Positions 38,837 through 49,308 of a DNA stretch of 55,451 nucleotides are shown here, piece after piece. Source of the stretch: Prosthecobacter debontii (GTDB lineage Bacteria > Verrucomicrobiota > Verrucomicrobiia > Chthoniobacterales > Chthoniobacteraceae); contig CAMAUI010000015.1 in assembly GCA_945861385.1 (NCBI GenBank), positions 1 to 55,451 of the forward strand, written 5' to 3'. The position numbers were made by a program, and so were the translations under genes. How positions within the stretch are numbered: the first letter of the stretch is position 1; the number at the start of each line of letters is the position of its first letter. The notes under the pieces are model-generated. The model made no database searches and had not been told where the DNA came from. It saw only the letters and a program-made list of their open reading frames with translations.

Positions 38837-39077
38837 GGGCCGCGCGTTGTAGCAGCGCTGGGCAGTTTGCCAACGCGCCATGCGAATTGGCGCGAACTCA
38901 GCGAAATTGCCGCACCGGTGCCGCCGACGCAGACGCAGCACGATTTGAGGGGCGACGCCTCTTGGCGTGGCCTGCAGCGTCACGTGCGGACGGGCAAGCA
39001 AATCCGTCCGCCTCCGTCGGAATCGGGCTTTTGCCTTCGCAATGCATCGGCTAGCGTCTTGCAGAAGACAACGACCA

Positions 39078-40397
39078 ATGAATCCGATTCTCGCCCAACT
39101 TGAAGAGCTCAAAGCCCAGTGGCTTGCCGCGCAGCCTTTGCCGGGCGCGAAGCATGACGAACTGTGGAGGAAGTTCCGCCTCGAATGGAATTACAACTCC
39201 AACCACATCGAGGGGAACACGCTCACCTATGGCGAGACGGAGCTGCTGCTCATCATGGGGCAGACGAAAGGCGACCACTCCATCCGCGAGTATGACGAAA
39301 TGAAGGCCCACGATGCGGCTGTGGCGCACATTGCCGAGTTGGCAAAAGAGCGGGCCATCGTCCGCGAGACCGACATTCGGAACTTCAACAAGATCATTCT
39401 CAAAGAGCCCTACTGGGCCGACGCCGTGACCGAGCACAGGCAGACCACGCAGGTGGAGATCATCCCCGGCGAATACAAGCGGCACCCGAACAACGTCAAA
39501 AGCCCCACCGGCGAACCCATCCTCTTCGCTTCGCCGACTGACACGCCTGCACGGATGCAGGAGTTCGTTGCGTGGATGCACGCGGAGCTGGACGCACCGA
39601 AGCTGCACCCCGTCGAGTTTGCCGCGCAATGCCATCATCGTTTCCTCACCATCCACCCGTTTGCCGATGGCAATGGCCGCGTCGCCCGCCTGCTCGCAAA
39701 CTACTTCGTCATGCGCGAAGGATTCCCGCCGATCATCGTGAAAAGCCGGGACAAAGCCGCCTACATCGCTGCTCTGCGCATCGCGGATGTGGGAGAACCG
39801 GAAAAACTCACGGACTACTTTGTCCGCGAAATGAAATGGTCTCTCGACATGGCTCACCGCGCGATGCGTGGCGAGAGCCTGAATGAGCCTGGGGATGTTG
39901 AGAAGGAGATCGCAGTGTTCATCAATCAGCAGGCGGTGAAGGACCGCGTTGCGCTTTCACGCACAAAAGAGGTGATTGAACAACTTGCCGATCAATTTTT
40001 GGCCCGCTTTTTCAAACGGGCGCAGGAGAAGATGATGAGGCTTGAGCCTTTGTTTAATTCTACGCTTTTGAAGTCCCATCTCCATATTGGCCACATAAGT
40101 GCGATAGACTGGAATGAGGGTTTTTCCGAATTCATTAAAGTGCATCCCAGAACTCACACATTTGATGCTGTGATCCAGTTTATCGGGTACAAAGGTCAGG
40201 CAAGAATTCCTTTCGATGTCGGTGTGACGTTGAGACTGAACTTTGATCAATACCGCTACTCAATTCTGAGAGATGGCAAATCCATGGTTGACCGCCGCTA
40301 TGACGAGTCGCTTTCGTCTGATGAGGTCGAGGCATTAACGGAGGATCTACTAGGGCGGGTATTTGCCGTAATAAAGAATACGGCCAGCCAGCAATAG
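39078..40397 (+). CDS. Fic domain protein (predicted AMP transferase)
   Basis: 439 aa. The Fic core motif H193-PFADGNGR-V-A-R is intact, predicting nucleotidyl (usually AMP) transfer to target proteins. An inhibitory helix motif [S/T]xxxE[G/N] occurs N-terminal to the core as S41-NHIE-G46-N, so this is a class II, self-inhibited Fic. The last 140 residues are not recognised and are visibly more AT-rich (from about 39950). An ATG at 39078 gives MNPILAQLEELK, a typical start. No antitoxin gene is adjacent. Confidence 0.88.
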   Translation: MNPILAQLEELKAQWLAAQPLPGAKHDELWRKFRLEWNYNSNHIEGNTLTYGETELLLIMGQTKGDHSIREYDEMKAHDAAVAHIAELAKERAIVRETDIRNFNKIILKEPYWADAVTEHRQTTQVEIIPGEYKRHPNNVKSPTGEPILFASPTDTPARMQEFVAWMHAELDAPKLHPVEFAAQCHHRFLTIHPFADGNGRVARLLANYFVMREGFPPIIVKSRDKAAYIAALRIADVGEPEKLTDYFVREMKWSLDMAHRAMRGESLNEPGDVEKEIAVFINQQAVKDRVALSRTKEVIEQLADQFLARFFKRAQEKMMRLEPLFNSTLLKSHLHIGHISAIDWNEGFSEFIKVHPRTHTFDAVIQFIGYKGQARIPFDVGVTLRLNFDQYRYSILRDGKSMVDRRYDESLSSDEVEALTEDLLGRVFAVIKNTASQQ

Positions 40398-40464
40398 CCA
40401 TTCCCGTCCTTTCGCCAGCCCATCCAGAGTGACACATCTGCAAACCTCCGCTACACGACCCGCG

Positions 40465-40869
40465 ATGCCTGAAACGCCGCCGCATATTCTCTACTGTCAC
40501 TGCCAATACGCGCAGGTGATCCCGAAGGCTGTGAAGGAGGCGGTGCTGCGGAAGTTGAGCGATAGCGGGGTGGCGTTTGATGCGGTGGCGGATCTTTGCG
40601 AGATGGCGGCGCGGCGCGACCCGGCGCTGGCGCGGATCGCAGGGGCGGGGCCGGTGAAGATCGCGGCGTGTTTCCCGCGCGCGGTGAAGGGGCTTTTTCA
40701 CCAGTGCGGGGCGGACTTGGATCCGAATGCGGCGGAGGTCTTGAACATGCGGACGCTGCCGGCGGAGGAGGTGGCGGATGCGCTGCTGGCGCAGGTTTTG
40801 AAGCCCAATATCCCTGCCGGAAAAGGAACGTCTCCGGCGGAAGAGGCTGCGAAGTCCGAAACCATCTGA
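40465..40869 (+). CDS. small cysteine-rich protein upstream of the ferredoxin
   Basis: 134 aa, cytoplasmic. Cysteines at 11, 13 (YCHCQYAQV), 45, 69 (KIAACFPRAVKGLFHQ) and 81. The pattern suggests a redox or metal-binding protein and is loosely like HdrA/iron-sulphur oxidoreductase partner domains. It is followed four bases later by a 2[4Fe-4S] protein, so the two are probably co-translated and interact. I know of no assigned function for this pair. Confidence 0.7.
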   Translation: MPETPPHILYCHCQYAQVIPKAVKEAVLRKLSDSGVAFDAVADLCEMAARRDPALARIAGAGPVKIAACFPRAVKGLFHQCGADLDPNAAEVLNMRTLPAEEVADALLAQVLKPNIPAGKGTSPAEEAAKSETI

Positions 40870-40873
40870 ATTT

Positions 40874-41728
40874 ATGCCGATCAAAGACGAAACCACGCTG
40901 CGCGTCGTCCTCTATGAGGGCGAGGGGTCTGTGCCACTCGATGAAAGCTCACGTTTTGCCACGCTGACCTCGCTGCTGGAGCGGGGCTTTGCGGTGACGC
41001 GGAGCACGGCGGGCGGTGCGGTGACGCCGCACACGCAGGGTTCGCTGGTGGTGCTGGGGCGGTTCGCGGAGGGCCGTGCGCCAGTGGCGGAGGACGCGGC
41101 GGGCGCGGTGAATGTGCGCTTTCACGACATCGCCAATCGCGGTGCGGACGAGGTCGCGGGGCTGGTGGAGCAGGAGCGCGAGGCCGTGGGCGCGGCGAAG
41201 CACGGGGAGTGGAAGCCGTGGTTCCCGGTGATTGATTATGACCGCTGCACGAATTGCATGCAGTGTCTGTCGTTCTGCCTGTTCGGGGTGTACGGGGTGG
41301 ATGCGGACAGCGCGATCCAGGTGCAGAACAACGACAACTGCAAAACGAATTGCCCGGCGTGTTCGCGGGTGTGCCCGGAGGCGGCGATCATGTTCCCCAA
41401 ATACAAGGCGGGGCCGATCAATGGCGACGTGGTGAGCGCGCAGGACCTGAACCGCGAGAAGATGAAAATAGACATCAGCGCGCTGCTGGGCGGCGATGTG
41501 TATTCGATGCTGCGGGCGCGGTCGGAAAAGGCGCAGAGCCGCTTCAGCAAAGAGCGCGACGAGGGGAAGGCGCTGACGGAACGGCAAAAATGTCTCGCGA
41601 AGCTGGCGGCCGCGGGGGACATCCCGGCGGAGGTGCTGGCGTCGCTGCCGTCGCAGGAGGAGATTTTGCGCAAGGCGGAGGAGGCGAAGGCGAAGGCCGC
41701 GGCGGCGCTCGCAGCGCAAAAAAAATAA
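40874..41728 (+). CDS. 2[4Fe-4S] ferredoxin-domain protein
   Basis: 284 aa. Cys motif C125-x2-C128-x2-C131-x3-C135 (DRCTNCMQCLSFC) and C156-x3-C160-x2-C163-x3-C167 (CKTNCPACSRVC) bind two cubane clusters. The first 110 residues resemble a small alpha/beta domain; the C-terminus (190-284) is charged and helical, rich in A/K/E. Electron carrier or sensor, paired with the preceding cysteine-rich protein. Located 203 bp before atpB, with the Rex-like operator between them. Confidence 0.85.
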   Translation: MPIKDETTLRVVLYEGEGSVPLDESSRFATLTSLLERGFAVTRSTAGGAVTPHTQGSLVVLGRFAEGRAPVAEDAAGAVNVRFHDIANRGADEVAGLVEQEREAVGAAKHGEWKPWFPVIDYDRCTNCMQCLSFCLFGVYGVDADSAIQVQNNDNCKTNCPACSRVCPEAAIMFPKYKAGPINGDVVSAQDLNREKMKIDISALLGGDVYSMLRARSEKAQSRFSKERDEGKALTERQKCLAKLAAAGDIPAEVLASLPSQEEILRKAEEAKAKAAAALAAQKK

Positions 41729-41776: not shown

Positions 41777-41794
41777 TTGTGAAAAGTTTCACAA
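41777..41794. promoter_or_regulatory. Rex-type operator upstream of the atp operon
   Basis: TTGTGAA-aagt-TTCACAA is a perfect 7-bp inverted repeat (9 bp when the flanking T/A pairs at 41776 and 41795 are included) and matches the Rex consensus TTGTGAAnnnnTTCACAA exactly. Rex is an NADH/NAD+-sensing repressor; ATP synthase genes are known Rex targets in Streptomyces. It lies 138 bp before the atpB ATG and downstream of the ferredoxin gene. A TTGCAT at 41800-41805 could belong to an overlapping promoter. Confidence 0.75.
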
Positions 41795-41844
41795 AGTTCT
41801 TGCATGGCTTTCTTCGAATCGCTTTTCTGCGCGTCCGCTTCGCC

Positions 41845-41931: not shown

Positions 41932-42984
41932 ATGCCCGCAGCTTTCCAACGCCGTCCTTCGTCCGCCATCCGAGCGGCGCGCCTTCTTGCGCTGATCACG
42001 GCATTTCTCGCATTCCTCGCGCCGTCAGCATTGTGTGAGCACGGGCCTGCCCCGGTGGTCACGGAAAAGACCGCGGGCCACGATGCGCATGCGGCGCACG
42101 GCAAGGGTTTGCCGAATGACGCACCGGTGCTCTTCCACATCGGCCCGCTGCCGGTGAACAACTCGATGATCATCACGTGGATTGTGGCGATTGGCATCAT
42201 CGTCTTCGCACAAAGGGCGACCAGGCGCATCCGCTCCTCGCGGGAAGCCGCCAACGAAGTGCCGTCGGGCGCTCAGAACTTCTGGGAGTTCCTGGTCGAG
42301 TCCCTCTACAATTTCCTGGGCGAAATTCTCGGCCCGAAGCTGGTCAAGAAGACGTTCTGGTTTTTCGCCACGATTTTCATCTTCATCCTTTTTACAAACT
42401 GGTTTGGCCTGCTTCCCGGCGTGGGCACGATTGGATGGAGCGTGCCCGAGGATCCAGGCTCACCGCATATTTTCAATCACGTCACGCGCCCGCTGTTCCG
42501 CGGAGGCAATGCCGACTTGAACATGACGGCTGCGATGGCGCTGACATTTTTTGGGTGGTGGACTTGGTGGGCGATCCGGGAGAACAGCCACGGGAAAAAG
42601 GGGATCGGCGGTTTTTTCGCGGGCATCGTGGGTGTGCTGAAGCATCTCTTTGCACCGAAGGGCAAGGAGTCGGGCTTCATGAAGTATTTCCTCATCCTCG
42701 TGTTTGCGGCAGTCGGCCTCATCGAGGTGGTTTCGATTCTGTTCCGCCCGGTGTCGCTGAGCTTCCGTCTCTACGGGAACGTTTTTGCTGGGGAAAACAT
42801 CCTTGAATCCATGATGCAGCTCGTGCCCTGGCTTGGCTGGCTGATCCCGGTGCCGTTTTACTTTCTCGAACTGCTGGTCGGCCTGGTGCAGGCGCTCGTT
42901 TTCACGCTGCTGACTTCCGTTTTCACCCTCCTCATCTGCGAGCACGAGGAGGAGCACCAAGAAGGGGTGGCAGCACACCACTGA
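41932..42984 (+). CDS. atpB: ATP synthase F0 subunit a
   Basis: 350 aa, longer than E. coli AtpB because of an N-terminal signal-like segment and a His/Ala-rich stretch (about residues 1-75). Forms the proton half-channels next to the c-ring. The essential Arg sits in SLSFRLYGNVFAGE; the last helices (LELLVGLVQALVFTLLTSVF) are typical. First gene of the F-type ATPase operon; no atpI precedes it. Confidence 0.95.
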   Translation: MPAAFQRRPSSAIRAARLLALITAFLAFLAPSALCEHGPAPVVTEKTAGHDAHAAHGKGLPNDAPVLFHIGPLPVNNSMIITWIVAIGIIVFAQRATRRIRSSREAANEVPSGAQNFWEFLVESLYNFLGEILGPKLVKKTFWFFATIFIFILFTNWFGLLPGVGTIGWSVPEDPGSPHIFNHVTRPLFRGGNADLNMTAAMALTFFGWWTWWAIRENSHGKKGIGGFFAGIVGVLKHLFAPKGKESGFMKYFLILVFAAVGLIEVVSILFRPVSLSFRLYGNVFAGENILESMMQLVPWLGWLIPVPFYFLELLVGLVQALVFTLLTSVFTLLICEHEEEHQEGVAAHH

Positions 42985-43059: not shown

Positions 43060-43269
43060 ATGGACATCCCAATCGCTGAAATTCTCAGCAATCTACACGT
43101 TGGTCTCGCCGGTCTCGGCTCGGCCATCGGCGTGGGTCTCATCGGATCGAAGGCCGCCGAGGCAACCGGACGCAATCCGGGTGCCGCGGGCGCCGTTCGC
43201 AACGTCGCGATCATCTTCGCGGCACTTGCGGAGGGCATCATCTTCTTCGCGATCTACCTCGCCAAGTAA
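43060..43269 (+). CDS. atpE: ATP synthase F0 subunit c
   Basis: 69-aa two-helix hairpin. Helix 1 is glycine-rich (GLAGLGSAIGVGLIG), the polar loop is ATGRNPGA, and helix 2 carries the ion-binding Glu in ALAEGIIFF. No Ser/Thr follows the Glu and the Na+ signature residues are not apparent, so proton coupling is likely. It begins after a 75-bp gap from atpB. Confidence 0.95.
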   Translation: MDIPIAEILSNLHVGLAGLGSAIGVGLIGSKAAEATGRNPGAAGAVRNVAIIFAALAEGIIFFAIYLAK

Positions 43270-43327: not shown

Positions 43328-43882
43328 ATGAGCCTATTCCTGATCCTTGCCGCAGCATCCGCAACCCCGGAGACCAATCCGATCAAACAGGTTGCCGAGC
43401 AATTTGGCCTGACGCCGCTGGGGCTGCTTTCGCAAGTCATCAGCTTCAGCATCGTCGCGTTCGTGCTGTATCGCTTCGCCTACAATCCGATCCTGAATGT
43501 CCTGGAAGCCCGCCGCCAGACGATTGCTGAAAGCCTCAAGAACGCTGAGCAGATCAAGACGCAGCTTGCGGAGGCGCGGAAGACTTCGGATGAGATCATC
43601 AGCAAGGCCAGCGCGGATGCGAACAGGATGATCGAAGAGGCACGCAACGCGGCCAAGCAGGTCGGCGAGCGCGAGAGCCAGCGCGCGGTGGCGCAGGCGG
43701 CGGACATCATCCAAAAAGCGCGCGAGGCCGGCGAGGCGGAGCAGAAGCGCCTGATGGCCGAGCTGAAGAAGGAGCTTTCACGCCTCATCGTCGAGACGAC
43801 GGCGAAAGTCACCGGCAAGGTGCTCACCGCCGCCGACCAGCGGAAGATCACCGAGGAAGCCACGCGCGAACTCGCCGCCTAG
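43328..43882 (+). CDS. atpF: ATP synthase F0 subunit b
   Basis: 184 aa. One N-terminal membrane helix ([20 protein letters not shown]) followed by a long charged coiled coil, for example [19 protein letters not shown] and [20 protein letters not shown]. Forms the peripheral stalk that holds F1 still. A short N-terminal extension ([17 protein letters not shown]) precedes the helix. It follows the atpE hairpin by 21 bp. Confidence 0.95.
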
Positions 43883-43885
43883 CCC

Positions 43886-44284
43886 ATGAAACTGAGCAAA
43901 GAAGGCCGCAAACTTTCCAAGGCGCTGTTCCGAACGAGCTTCGTGAACGGCGCGCTCGACAGCGCGCGCGTCTCGCAAATTTCCGAGCACGTCGCGCAGT
44001 CGAAGCCGCGCAATTACATCGGCGTGCTCAAGGAACTCGCGAGGCTCATCCGGCTCGAACTCGCGAAGAAAGAGGCGACCATCGAGAGCGTGACCGACCT
44101 CGATGCGGGCGAGAAAAACGAAATCACCCGCGCGCTCCGAGCAAAGTACGGCGCGGACGTGACGACGGAATTCAAAACGAACTCCGGCATCCTCGGCGGT
44201 GTCCGCATTCAAATCGGCAGCGACGTGCTGGACGCCACCGTCCGCACCCGCCTCGACCGCCTCTCGGTGGATCTCGCCGCGTAA
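43886..44284 (+). CDS. atpH: ATP synthase F1 subunit delta (short form)
   Basis: 132 aa against about 177 in E. coli. The C-terminal part is normal ([32 protein letters not shown]), but the N-terminal six-helix domain that binds the alpha subunits appears shortened. The ATG follows the atpF stop by three bases, and no upstream start could lengthen it within the operon. Still likely to be the stalk-connecting subunit. See findings. Confidence 0.85.
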
Positions 44285-44322: not shown

Positions 44323-45849
44323 ATGAGCAGCATCCTGCAAGACCTTGAATCCAAAATCTCCGGCCTGAAAACCGGGACCACCAAATCGAACGTCGGCACC
44401 GTCCGCGAAGTCGGCGACGGCGTCGCCAAAATCGAAGGGCTGAGCGATGTCATGCTCAACGAGATGCTGGAATTTCCCGGCGGCGTCTTCGGCCTCGCGC
44501 TGAACCTCGAAGAAAACGAAGTCGGCGCCGTGCTTCTCGGCGACGACAAGCTCGTGACCGAGGGCAGCGAGGTGAAAACCACGGGGCGTCTGCTTTCCGT
44601 GCCGGTCGGCAAAGGGCTGCTCGGTCGCGCGGTGAATACGCTCGGCCAGCCGGTGGACGGCAAGGGGCCAATCGAGGCGACGGCGCAGTATCCGGTGGAG
44701 AAAATCGCGCCGGGCATCATCAAGCGCAAATCTGTCAGCCAGCCGGTGCAGACGGGCATCATGGCGATTGATGCGATGATTCCGATTGGCCGCGGTCAGC
44801 GCGAGTTGATCATCGGCGACCGCGCGACGGGGAAGACGACCATCGCGATTGACGCGATCATCAACCAGGGCCGCATCAACAAGGCCAACGAGGGCAAGGC
44901 GGGCTTCCGTCCGCTTTACTCCATCTACGTCGCCATCGGCCAGAAGCAGTCGAACGTCGCGCGCAACATCGCGGTGCTCGAAGAAACCGGCGCGATGCAG
45001 TACACGATCATCGTTGTCGCGGGCGCGTCGGACAAAGCCTCGATGCAGTTCCTGGCACCGTTCGCGGGCGCGGCGATGGGCGAATGGTTCATGGATAACG
45101 GCATGGACGCGCTGATCGTGTTCGACGATCTCTCGAAGCAAGCTGTCGCGTATCGCGAAGTGTCGCTGCTCCTCAAGCGCCCGTCGGGCCGCGAGGCGTA
45201 TCCGGGCGACGTGTTCTATCTCCACAGCCGCCTGCTCGAACGCTCGGCGCGCGTGAATGAACAGAGCGGCGGTGGTTCGCTGACCGCGCTGCCGATCATC
45301 GAGACGCAGGCGGGCGACGTTTCGGCCTACATCCCGACGAACGTGATTTCGATCACGGACGGCCAGATTTACCTCGAAACGGATCTCTTTTACCAAGGCA
45401 TCCGCCCGGCGGTTTCCGTCGGTCTGTCGGTCAGCCGCGTGGGTTCGTCCGCGCAGGTGAAGGCGATGAAACAGGTGGCCGGCAAAATCAAAGGCATGCT
45501 CGCCCAGTATCGCGAGCTGGCGGCGTTCGCGCAGTTCGGCAGCGACCTCGACGCGGCGACCAAAGCGCTGCTCGATCGCGGCCAGCGCATCGTGGAGATT
45601 TTCAAGCAGCAGCAATACAACCCGATGCCCGTGGAGACGCAGTGCGCGATTCTGTGGGCGGTGATGAACAATCACTTCGACGACGTGCCTGTGGATAAAG
45701 TGAAGGATTTCCAGACGAAGTTCACCGACTTCCTCACGACGCGGAAGGACGCCGTGCTGCAAATGCTGCGCGACAAGCCGGAGATCAACGACGCTTCAGC
45801 CGCCGCACTGAAAGAGGCCGTCACCGAATTTAAGCAGAGCTACCGCTAA
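44323..45849 (+). CDS. atpA: ATP synthase F1 subunit alpha
   Basis: 508 aa, the usual length. Nucleotide-binding P-loop G165-D-R-A-T-G-K171-T (the usual motif is GDRQTGKT, with Ala here for Gln); DELSD-like [12 protein letters not shown] segment; catalytic-interface Arg in [15 protein letters not shown]-terminal beta-barrel and C-terminal helical domain normal. Non-catalytic subunit. The following gene in the operon is not a synthase subunit. Confidence 0.97.
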
Positions 45850-45878: not shown

Positions 45879-46487
45879 ATGCCAGAGACTTTGACCATCG
45901 AGACCGCCGGGAGCGCGATCCACATCATCCGTGGACATCGCGTGATGACGGATGCCGACTTGGCGAAGTTCTACGGCGTGACGACGAAGGTGCTCAACCA
46001 GGCGGTGCGCCGGAACAAGCACCGCTTCCCGCAAGATTTCGCGTTTCGGCTTGCGGCTGAGGAGTTTAAGAACTTGAGGTCACAAAATGTGACCTCAAGT
46101 TTGGCTCACGGCGGGCGGCGTTTCATGCCTTGGGTATTCACCGAGCACGGTGCGGTCATGCTGGCCGGTGTGTTAAACAGCGCCGTGGCCATCGCGGCGA
46201 GCGTCGAGATCGTTCGCGTCTTTGTGCGGATGCGCAATGCCCTATCCAGTTCCGATCTCGTCGGGAAGCTCGTGGACATCGAAAGCCGCCTCGACGGGCA
46301 CGACGAAGACCTCGCCGCTGTCTTCAAGGCGATCAAGCAGCTCATCGAAACTCCAAAACCATCGCGCAAGGAAATGGGCTTTCACACTCTGCGTGAAGAC
46401 ACGGAAGGCTGCGCCGAGTTGAAAACCGCCCCGCCCCGCAAAGTCCGCTATCCGGCAAAGCGCCGCACGCGAAAGGGGAAACACTGA
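45879..46487 (+). CDS. ORF6N-domain DNA-binding protein inside the atp operon
   Basis: 202 aa from the ATG at 45879 (GTG at 45852 is an alternative). Classic ORF6N pattern: IIRGHRVMTDADLAKFYGVT, VLNQAVRRNKHRFPQDFAF, NLRSQNVTSS, GGRRFMPWVFTEHGAVML and a C-terminal coiled segment (KLVDIESRLDGHDEDLAAVF) followed by a basic tail (KRRTRKGKH). These are phage-antirepressor-like or mobile-island proteins, presumed DNA-binding. It lies 29 bp after atpA and 4 bp before atpG in the same direction, an unusual position. It carries a perfect 14-bp palindrome (46071-46101) in its coding sequence. Confidence 0.9.
   Translation: MPETLTIETAGSAIHIIRGHRVMTDADLAKFYGVTTKVLNQAVRRNKHRFPQDFAFRLAAEEFKNLRSQNVTSSLAHGGRRFMPWVFTEHGAVMLAGVLNSAVAIAASVEIVRVFVRMRNALSSSDLVGKLVDIESRLDGHDEDLAAVFKAIKQLIETPKPSRKEMGFHTLREDTEGCAELKTAPPRKVRYPAKRRTRKGKH
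46071..46101. repeat. 14-bp perfect inverted repeat in the ORF6N gene
   Basis: AACTTGAGGTCACA at 46071-46084, loop AAA, then its exact reverse complement at 46088-46101. It encodes NLRSQNVTSS, the conserved ORF6N motif, so a coding constraint and a possible operator coincide here. Confidence 0.85.
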
Positions 46488-46491
46488 TTTT

Positions 46492-47379
46492 ATGGGCGCA
46501 AACACCCGCGACATCCGCCGGCGAATCAAGTCGGTCAAAAACACCTCCCAAATCACCAAGGCGATGCAGATGGTCGCCGCGGCGAAGATGCGGAAAGCGC
46601 AGCTTCGCGCGCTGAATGGCCGTCCTTACGCCGAGGCGCTGGCGAAGATGCTCGCCGCGCTCGCACAGGCGGGCGGCAGCGCCGAGTTGCATCCGCTGTT
46701 GCAGGACCGCCCTGAAGTGAAGCGCGAACTCGTGCTCGTCATCGCGACGGACAAAGGACTTTGCGGCGCGCTGAACACGAATCTCTTTCGCGAACTGGGC
46801 CGGTTTGATCCCGCGAAAACCACGTTCGTCGCCATCGGACGCAAGGCGGCGCAATACCTCGGACGGCTCAAACGCGACCTCGCGGCGGAGTTCGAGCTGA
46901 AGGAGGCGTTCAGTTTCCTCGAAAGCAAACAGGCGTCGAAGTTCGTGATGGAGAAATTCCTCGCGGGAGACGTGGACAAAGTGAGCGTCGCTTACACGGA
47001 CTACATCAGCACCATCAATCAGAAGCCGACGATCAGCGTGATTTTGCCGGTGGAAAACTTCGAGCTGAGCGACCTCGAAGGCGAGAAAGGCACGAAGAAA
47101 GTCGAAGCTGCCGCGAACACGACCGAATATGTTTTCGAGCCGGGCGCAGGTGCCGTGCTGGAGGGACTCGTGCCGCATTACGTTCACTTTGCCGTGTATC
47201 AAATGGTACTCGAAAGCCGCGCCTCCGAGCACAGCGCGCGCATGGTCGCGATGAAGAACGCGACCGACAACGCCAAGCAACTCATCAAGGATCTCACCCT
47301 CCAGTACAACAAGGTGCGCCAGGCGGCGATCACCACGGAACTTCTCGAAATCACCACAGCGCAAATGGCGCTCGGCTAA
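46492..47379 (+). CDS. atpG: ATP synthase F1 subunit gamma
   Basis: 295 aa. N-terminal helix DIRRRIKSVKNTSQITKAMQMVA and C-terminal helix (MVAMKNATDNAKQLIKDLTLQYNKVRQAAITTEL) form the rotor coiled coil; the central Rossmann-like domain has VIATDKGLCGALN. Start ATG is four bases after the ORF6N stop, with AAAGGGGAAA in the end of that gene serving as a possible Shine-Dalgarno. Confidence 0.96.
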   Translation: MGANTRDIRRRIKSVKNTSQITKAMQMVAAAKMRKAQLRALNGRPYAEALAKMLAALAQAGGSAELHPLLQDRPEVKRELVLVIATDKGLCGALNTNLFRELGRFDPAKTTFVAIGRKAAQYLGRLKRDLAAEFELKEAFSFLESKQASKFVMEKFLAGDVDKVSVAYTDYISTINQKPTISVILPVENFELSDLEGEKGTKKVEAAANTTEYVFEPGAGAVLEGLVPHYVHFAVYQMVLESRASEHSARMVAMKNATDNAKQLIKDLTLQYNKVRQAAITTELLEITTAQMALG

Positions 47380-48807
<1,428 letters not shown>

Positions 48808-48894: not shown

Positions 48895-49308
48895 ATGGCC
48901 ACACTGCACCTCGAAATCGTCACCCCCGAAGCCCGCGCTTACAGCGACGACGTGGAAATGGTCGTCCTGCCCGCAGTCGAGGGCGAGATGGGCGTTTATC
49001 CGCAGCACATCCCGCTCATCACGCAGCTCAAGCCCGGCGAACTTGTCGTCACCAAAGACGGCAAACAAACCGCGCTCGCCATCGGCGAAGGCTTCGTCGA
49101 GGTCACAGGCACAAAAGTCAGCGTCCTCGTGGACATGGCGCTGCAGGAATCCGAGATTGACGAGAAGGCCGCCGAGGAAGCCATCGCGCGCGCTGAGGCT
49201 CGCTTGAAGGAACAGCTCCTCGGAGACGAAGAGGCCGCTCTCGTTCAGGCCGCAATCGCGAAATCGCTCGCCCAGCTCCATGTCAAGCGCAGGCGCCGGG
49301 GTGTTTGA
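48895..49308 (+). CDS. atpC: ATP synthase F1 subunit epsilon
   Basis: 137 aa. N-terminal beta-sandwich (LHLEIVTPEARAYSDDVEMVVLPA, EGEMGVYPQHIPL) and the C-terminal helical pair (DEKAAEEAIARAEARLKEQL), which can act as an inhibitory arm. Last gene of the operon. Confidence 0.95.
   Translation: MATLHLEIVTPEARAYSDDVEMVVLPAVEGEMGVYPQHIPLITQLKPGELVVTKDGKQTALAIGEGFVEVTGTKVSVLVDMALQESEIDEKAAEEAIARAEARLKEQLLGDEEAALVQAAIAKSLAQLHVKRRRRGV

Follow-up and report, generated by a model that had tools for sequence, protein, structure and literature searches.

A conserved, probable Rex operator in front of the ATP synthase operon and other respiratory genes of a Prosthecobacter debontii genome

Introduction

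The closest described system is the Rex regulon of Streptomyces avermitilis. In the portions of the published account used here, Rex binds TTGTGAANNNNTTCACAA in front of the atp and nuo operons, NADH lowers this binding, and deletion of rex raises the transcripts of both (PMC5355995). The same portions name atpIBEFHAGDC, nuoA1-N1, ndh2 and others as directly controlled by Rex and describe a decrease of atp expression when oxygen was limiting, also in the absence of rex (PMC5355995).

Here, we followed up a candidate Rex site in a 55,451-nt stretch of DNA (the window) from a genome assigned to Prosthecobacter debontii. The comparative study of Rex regulons by Ravcheev et al. from 2012 reportedly used the same method, namely conserved Rex motifs in front of energy genes, and Verrucomicrobiota are said not to be among the groups covered. 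Within the open-access literature, we found no report of Rex in Verrucomicrobiota or together with alternative complex III, nor one that connects Rex to UP elements or to leaderless operators.

The operator and its copies in the genome

The sequence TTGTGAAAAGTTTCACAA occurs once in the window without any mismatch, and its symmetry extends by one base pair on either side (Table 1). It precedes the ATP synthase genes in the order atpB, E, F, H, A, G, D, C, and its centre lies 146.5 bp ahead of the atpB ATG. A preliminary description of the DNA, made from the letters alone, had already named a perfect Rex operator motif at a distance of 147 bp from this start codon, and both statements hold. With zero to three mismatches allowed, the window contained three matches at 0.9 expected, only one of which is exact.

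Table 1. Positions of the features in the window and, where a contig is named, elsewhere in the same genome
Feature	Position	Strand	Basis or context
Fic-domain protein gene	38967..40397	+	PF02661, E 3.1e-18
ORF	40456..40869	+	no Pfam match
4Fe-4S protein gene (284 aa)	40874..41728	+	4Fe-4S domains
Rex operator	41777..41794	.	exact match to TTGTGAAN4TTCACAA; kept before atpB in relatives
Predicted -35 box	41800..41805	+	TTGCAT, 5 nt after operator; read from sequence
Predicted -10 box	41823..41828	+	TTTTCT, 17 nt after -35; read from sequence
atpB, ATP synthase subunit a	41932..42984	+	PF00119, E 1.7e-38
atpE, subunit c	43060..43269	+	PF00137
atpF, subunit b	43328..43882	+	PF00430
atpH, subunit delta	43886..44284	+	PF00213
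atpA, subunit alpha	44323..45849	+	PF00006 and flanking domains
ORF6N-domain gene	45879..46487	+	PF10543, E 5.4e-32
atpG, subunit gamma	46492..47379	+	PF00231
atpD, subunit beta	47401..48807	+	PF00006 and flanking domains
atpC, subunit epsilon	48895..49308	+	PF02823
nuo site	C30:32787		before short ORF, then NuoE-NuoF fusion, NuoG, NuoH
act site	C78:19524		before multihaem cytochrome, 1103-aa Fe-S protein, NrfD protein
Polyprenyl diphosphate synthase site	C38:13071-13088 (L006:8072-8089)		at polyprenyl diphosphate synthase gene
rex (PF06971 match)	C38:10440-10583		2.5 kb from polyprenyl diphosphate synthase site

Across the genome (4.29 Mb, 174 contigs, 93.7% complete), four exact sites were found, none with one mismatch and eight with two, the latter compared with two for the reversed-pattern control. 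All eight of these weaker places fall within longer open frames, away from any recognised energy gene. They were therefore dropped, and the four exact sites were taken as the regulon of this genome. A search for further matching sites had been proposed in the preliminary description, and it added three exact ones to that of atpB, all in front of genes of the aerobic chain: the nuo operon (complex I), an operon for an enzyme resembling alternative complex III (act), and a polyprenyl diphosphate synthase gene, the product of which probably serves the quinone tail. The act gene layout is presumably that of alternative complex III; the nearest NCBIfam models of its proteins are the related Qrc subunits, below cut-off. 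A divergent ORF, which by eye was taken for anthranilate synthase component II, borders the nuo site on its other side, and the conservation of this type of site goes with the nuo side.

Within the ATP synthase operon, an ORF6N-domain gene sits between atpA and atpG. Ten stretches from relatives were fetched, and the gene is missing from the junction in all nine that span it and thus has the appearance of a recent insertion.

The Rex protein and its gene

The genome holds a single PF06971 match, and this rex gene encodes both the winged helix (PF06971) and the NAD(H)-binding Rossmann domain (PF02629) that a search for the regulator was expected to reveal (E 1.9e-17 and 2.3e-17). The protein passes the cut-off of the NCBIfam equivalog NF003992 and matches Thermotoga maritima Rex with an E of 1.7e-45.

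A full operator in front of rex itself is common, but not universal. In this genome it is absent, with a best match of five mismatches, and none of the 30 family loci scanned has one either (best 3-6 mismatches). The gene is preceded by a half-site only: of 27 family loci, 20 have TTCACAA no more than 50 nt before the conserved Rex N-terminus and none has TTGTGAA there, a count that leaves out L049, L053 and L063. This half-site in the leader is a possible weak autoregulatory element. In several rex leaders (e.g., L005, L047 and L050), TTTCA was seen by eye to recur 12 bp further upstream, forming a direct repeat. In two genomes from other classes of the phylum (G095 and G201), an exact site stands directly before rex.

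Conservation of sites and Rex

The family sample comprised 40 genomes, including that of the window. Exact sites were present in all 40, and the reversed pattern gave none. Rex was detected in 37, among them all 26 genomes of at least 90% completeness and at most 5% contamination, while the three genomes with sites and no Rex match are 73, 84 and 88% complete. The upstream regions of atpB had been suggested as a check, and the palindrome is indeed kept: atpB was detectable in 38 family genomes, and the respiratory-type gene has an exact site in front of it in 37 of them. The exception is G022, which has Rex and no site before atpB. Three second, divergent atpB-like copies in the family are without a site.

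Of 138 distinct family sites, 136 were assigned to an energy-metabolism gene not more than 750 bp downstream: atpB (37), act (32), nuoD (26), nuoE/F (15), polyprenyl synthase (15), nuoB (5), mqnE (2), sdhC (2), an NDH-2-like gene (1) and a PGK-like gene (1), with the references for NuoD, NuoB, MqnE, SdhC, Ndh2, CoxB, NuoH, cytochrome c and PGK taken from the site loci themselves, and with NDH-2, PGK, the act proteins and polyprenyl synthase below the NCBIfam equivalog cut-offs. The two remaining sites (L098 and L156) have no energy-gene target. At L139, pyruvate dehydrogenase E1 was rejected as a target because it is 879 bp away, and the site was assigned to the NDH-2-like gene.

Beyond the family, 125 relatives from the order and class were compared, for which only matches well above the cut-off were called as Rex and four matches at E 1e-4 to 9e-4 were counted as absent. 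An exact site was found in 23 of 24 Rex-bearing genomes versus 3 of 101 Rex-less ones (Fisher P 8e-21 for at least one site, uncorrected for kinship). All 23 contain at least two sites, and no Rex-less genome has two. The Rex-bearing genome without an exact site (G334) shows one mismatch at atpB. Thirty order and class genomes were chosen for a scan of the 700 bp ahead of atpB; the best site there was exact in 18 of 20 Rex-bearing genomes, with one and two mismatches in the others (the latter in G361), and had 4-6 mismatches in all ten Rex-less genomes. Absence also coincides: in family f9, all 23 genomes of genus g19 are without Rex and sites and most others have both, and G254 is without both where its congeners G282 and G293 keep both. 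We infer joint loss of Rex and sites.

In the order and class set, a script based on a distance rule assigned 45 of 53 distinct sites. Of the eight it left, three belong to atpB and two to NuoF, missed by this rule, and three (L247, L260 and the L219/L255 stretch) are without a clear target. Class relatives with a split nuo have separate units, each with its own exact site; in G226 and G273, exact sites stand at nuoB, nuoD, nuoE or nuoF, nuoG and nuoH. In some genomes, sites are further found ahead of an NDH-2-like gene, cox2 or a gene for cytochrome c.

The 70 atpB loci examined out of 80 named ones gave 21 exact sites, nine with one mismatch, four with two, two with three, and 34 with 4-6. 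Six loci titled Akkermansia (L311, L312, L315, L322, L323 and L325) have no site, and three titled Akkermansiaceae (L289, L291 and L295) have an exact one. Two further loci with an exact site (L269 and L285) are titled A. muciniphila, and both titles look wrong. The atpB flank of L269 (CAMCIN010000165.1, a metagenome bin) is that of G009 from the window's family. Most loci with one or two mismatches, including some with Pedosphaera and Limisphaerales titles, have an altered right half in common (TTCACG or similar), which is perhaps a lineage-specific Rex operator. In L263, L264, L282, L309, L327, L329 and similar loci, titled Verrucomicrobia, Pedosphaera or Limisphaerales, the variant TTGTGAAN4TTCACGA/C/T stands before atpB and is followed by a shared CGGCA- or AGGCA-like sequence.

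On the level of the phylum, 34 of 387 genomes contain an exact site and 231 a PF06971 match (225 above cut-off); outside the class Verrucomicrobiae, Rex is therefore common and exact sites are rare. In one genome of another class (L355, G122:C1), an exact site precedes a small cysteine-rich ORF (by eye), possibly an electron-transfer gene.

Predicted promoter layout and probable mode of regulation

Among 155 oriented atp, nuo and act sites, 148 have a TTG 5-7 nt after the operator towards the gene, and 9 have one at that distance on the opposite side; the 155 windows are related sequences and not independent. The gene-side count was 54/55 for AtpB, 17/18 for NuoE/F, 4/4 for NuoG, 33/37 for ActA, 31/32 for NuoD and 9/9 for NuoB. 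We predict this TTG to be part of the -35 box. Column counts among 54 atp sites also show T/A-rich columns at the -10 place. From the spacing of the TTG and the T/A-rich -10 at 17 nt, the operator centre is predicted at about -50.

The operators of polyprenyl synthase and mqnE are arranged differently, with no TTG 5-7 nt after the operator in three of three sites each. In all 15 family sites at polyprenyl synthase and in G296 from the same order, a GTG within TTGTGAAANNTTTCACAA is in frame with polyprenyl synthase without an intervening stop, and the stretch from the operator to the conserved domain differs among loci by multiples of three. All 16 loci have TTGAC(T/A) ahead of the coding operator. 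In this genome, TTGACT is followed after 17 nt by TAGCCT and after another 6 nt by the GTG, a spacing which suggests that the mRNA is leaderless and the GTG in the operator the apparent start codon. The class relatives L229 and L257 differ in having this GTG out of frame with polyprenyl synthase. At the three mqnE loci (L087, L097 and L215/L241), the operator ends a few to approximately 25 bp before the start codon. Judging from this layout, Rex bound at the polyprenyl synthase and mqnE operators could hardly do otherwise than block transcription.

Taken together, control of atp by Rex, through repression with the palindrome as operator, is very probable. The F-type ATPase under Rex control that had been put forward for this locus is supported by the rex gene, the conserved site and the further targets in the aerobic chain. 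With S. avermitilis as the precedent, Rex-NAD+ would repress atp here too, and by this analogy we infer Rex binding, its response to NADH and repression in this organism. At a low NADH/NAD+ ratio, a Rex dimer with NAD+ would occupy the operator, which immediately precedes the predicted -35 box, and keep the atp operon repressed. Accumulating NADH would release Rex, and ATP synthase would be made. Complex I, the alternative-complex-III-like enzyme and polyprenyl diphosphate synthase would be co-induced through the same operator. Since the same site stands before most respiratory-chain clusters in relatives, a single sensor probably adjusts a large share of energy metabolism. However, induction of atp by NADH is not assured, given the S. 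avermitilis decrease under oxygen limitation even without rex.

The placement at about -50 argues against repression, as it differs from that usual for repressors. Our guess is that the A/T-rich operator lies where the alpha subunit of RNA polymerase would touch the DNA and that Rex would block there. Alternatively, Rex could act as an activator at the atp, nuo and act promoters from a position near -50, with repression restricted to operators that lie on the transcription start. The stereotyped gap between operator and -35 box is as for activators, and the position of the polyprenyl synthase and mqnE operators at the start codon instead would fit as well. Nevertheless, we consider activation unlikely: the promoters are predicted only, switching respiration on at low NADH makes little physiological sense, and Rex represses atp and nuo in the S. 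avermitilis work, as far as the portions cited go (PMC5355995).

Repression remains the preferred reading. In a wider reading, one NADH sensor would, across a large part of the class Verrucomicrobiae, serve as a shared switch for most parts of oxidative phosphorylation (complex I, the III-like complex, synthesis of quinone, ATP synthase), and its operator would be an integral part of the core promoter. In one arrangement, the operator would precede the -35 box at a fixed spacing of approximately 5-7 nt, a position from which Rex would affect RNA polymerase directly, through obstruction of the alpha contact or even through activation. In the other, it would form the start codon of a leaderless gene, with the palindrome encoding the first residues V/M-K-x-F-T. 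This joint reading is tentative, and we place our confidence in it somewhat below the halfway mark.

Other readings of the site

A regulator of the CRP/FNR family could use the site instead. The consensus of E. coli CRP is TGTGAN6TCACA, which is contained in the palindrome of Table 1, and CRP-family HTH domains were found in 45 of 56 genomes at E <= 0.001. Still, such a regulator is highly improbable here. At the same threshold, the 93.7% complete genome of the window has no HTH_Crp_2 (PF13545) match, nor have the site-bearing G105, G226, G282, G307, G393 and G417. With PF13545 as the sole search model and the Rex-less genomes hand-chosen, an E below 1e-10 was reached in 4 of 24 site-bearing versus 11 of 31 Rex-less genomes. 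Rex, in contrast, tracks the sites almost perfectly.

Upstream of the operator, the preliminary description had seen a ferredoxin pair which the site might regulate. One member stands, a single 4Fe-4S protein; the other is an ORF without a Pfam match. Both are encoded on the forward strand and end before the operator, so the latter lies behind and not in front of them. The end of the Fe-S gene is only 48 bp ahead of the operator, which might speak for a link, but no homologue was found beside the other sites and atpB loci searched, where the connection to atpB persists. Consequently, the Fe-S gene was rejected as a Rex target, and we regard this role of the operator as very doubtful. Two genes upstream of the Fe-S gene lies one for a Fic-domain protein.

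A chance match, favoured by nothing except the shortness of the palindrome, can be practically dismissed on the strong evidence of the genome-wide counts, with four exact sites in this genome, sites in the whole family against none for the reversed pattern and conservation before atpB, compared with a mean of 0.03 exact sites per genome across the 101 Rex-less order and class relatives.

Implications and comparison with known systems

The sequence evidence confirms a Rex operator that is well conserved and that belongs to what amounts to a Rex regulon of the respiratory chain. If the regulatory reading is right, a phylum of bacteria from soil, water and the gut that has received little study ties its supply of ATP synthase to NADH/NAD+ through one chain-wide regulator and offers a simple, testable model of redox control over a whole pathway. 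The sites are few (approximately four per genome), exact and easily assayed. An Akkermansia-like genus without Rex and sites, next to sister genera with both, would be a natural experiment on respiration without the switch, and two concrete promoter designs, with the operator in register or at the start codon, lend themselves to testing.

As far as the cited portions of the S. avermitilis study extend, its operator consensus is the same as here (PMC5355995). However, no exact consensus occurs among its 36 listed motifs (two with one mismatch, ten with two and 24 with three), compared with four exact sites in this genome (PMC5355995). At its atp and nuo operons, the Rex footprint overlaps the -35 box, whereas the sites described here lie upstream of the predicted -35 box or on the start codon, and its rex gene has a full site instead of a half-site (PMC5355995). 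The alternative-complex-III-like operon and polyprenyl synthase are targets here, unlike in the S. avermitilis regulon as given in those portions (PMC5355995). In Staphylococcus aureus, the Rex operator TTGTGAAW4TTCACAA is likewise the same, but, according to the part of the study considered, Rex governs anaerobically induced genes there, while the sites here precede genes of the aerobic chain (PMC2883068). Compared with the Rex-NAD+-DNA structure of T. maritima (7WB3), as covered in the cited part of that work, 11 of 12 DNA-contact residues are identical in this genome's Rex, with Ser52 replaced by Thr, and Asn92 and Ile93 of the NAD site are replaced by Gln and Leu, respectively (PMC8836258). 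The kind of system is known from the control of atp and nuo by Rex in Streptomyces; its reach, the exactness of the sites and the promoter design are the new parts.
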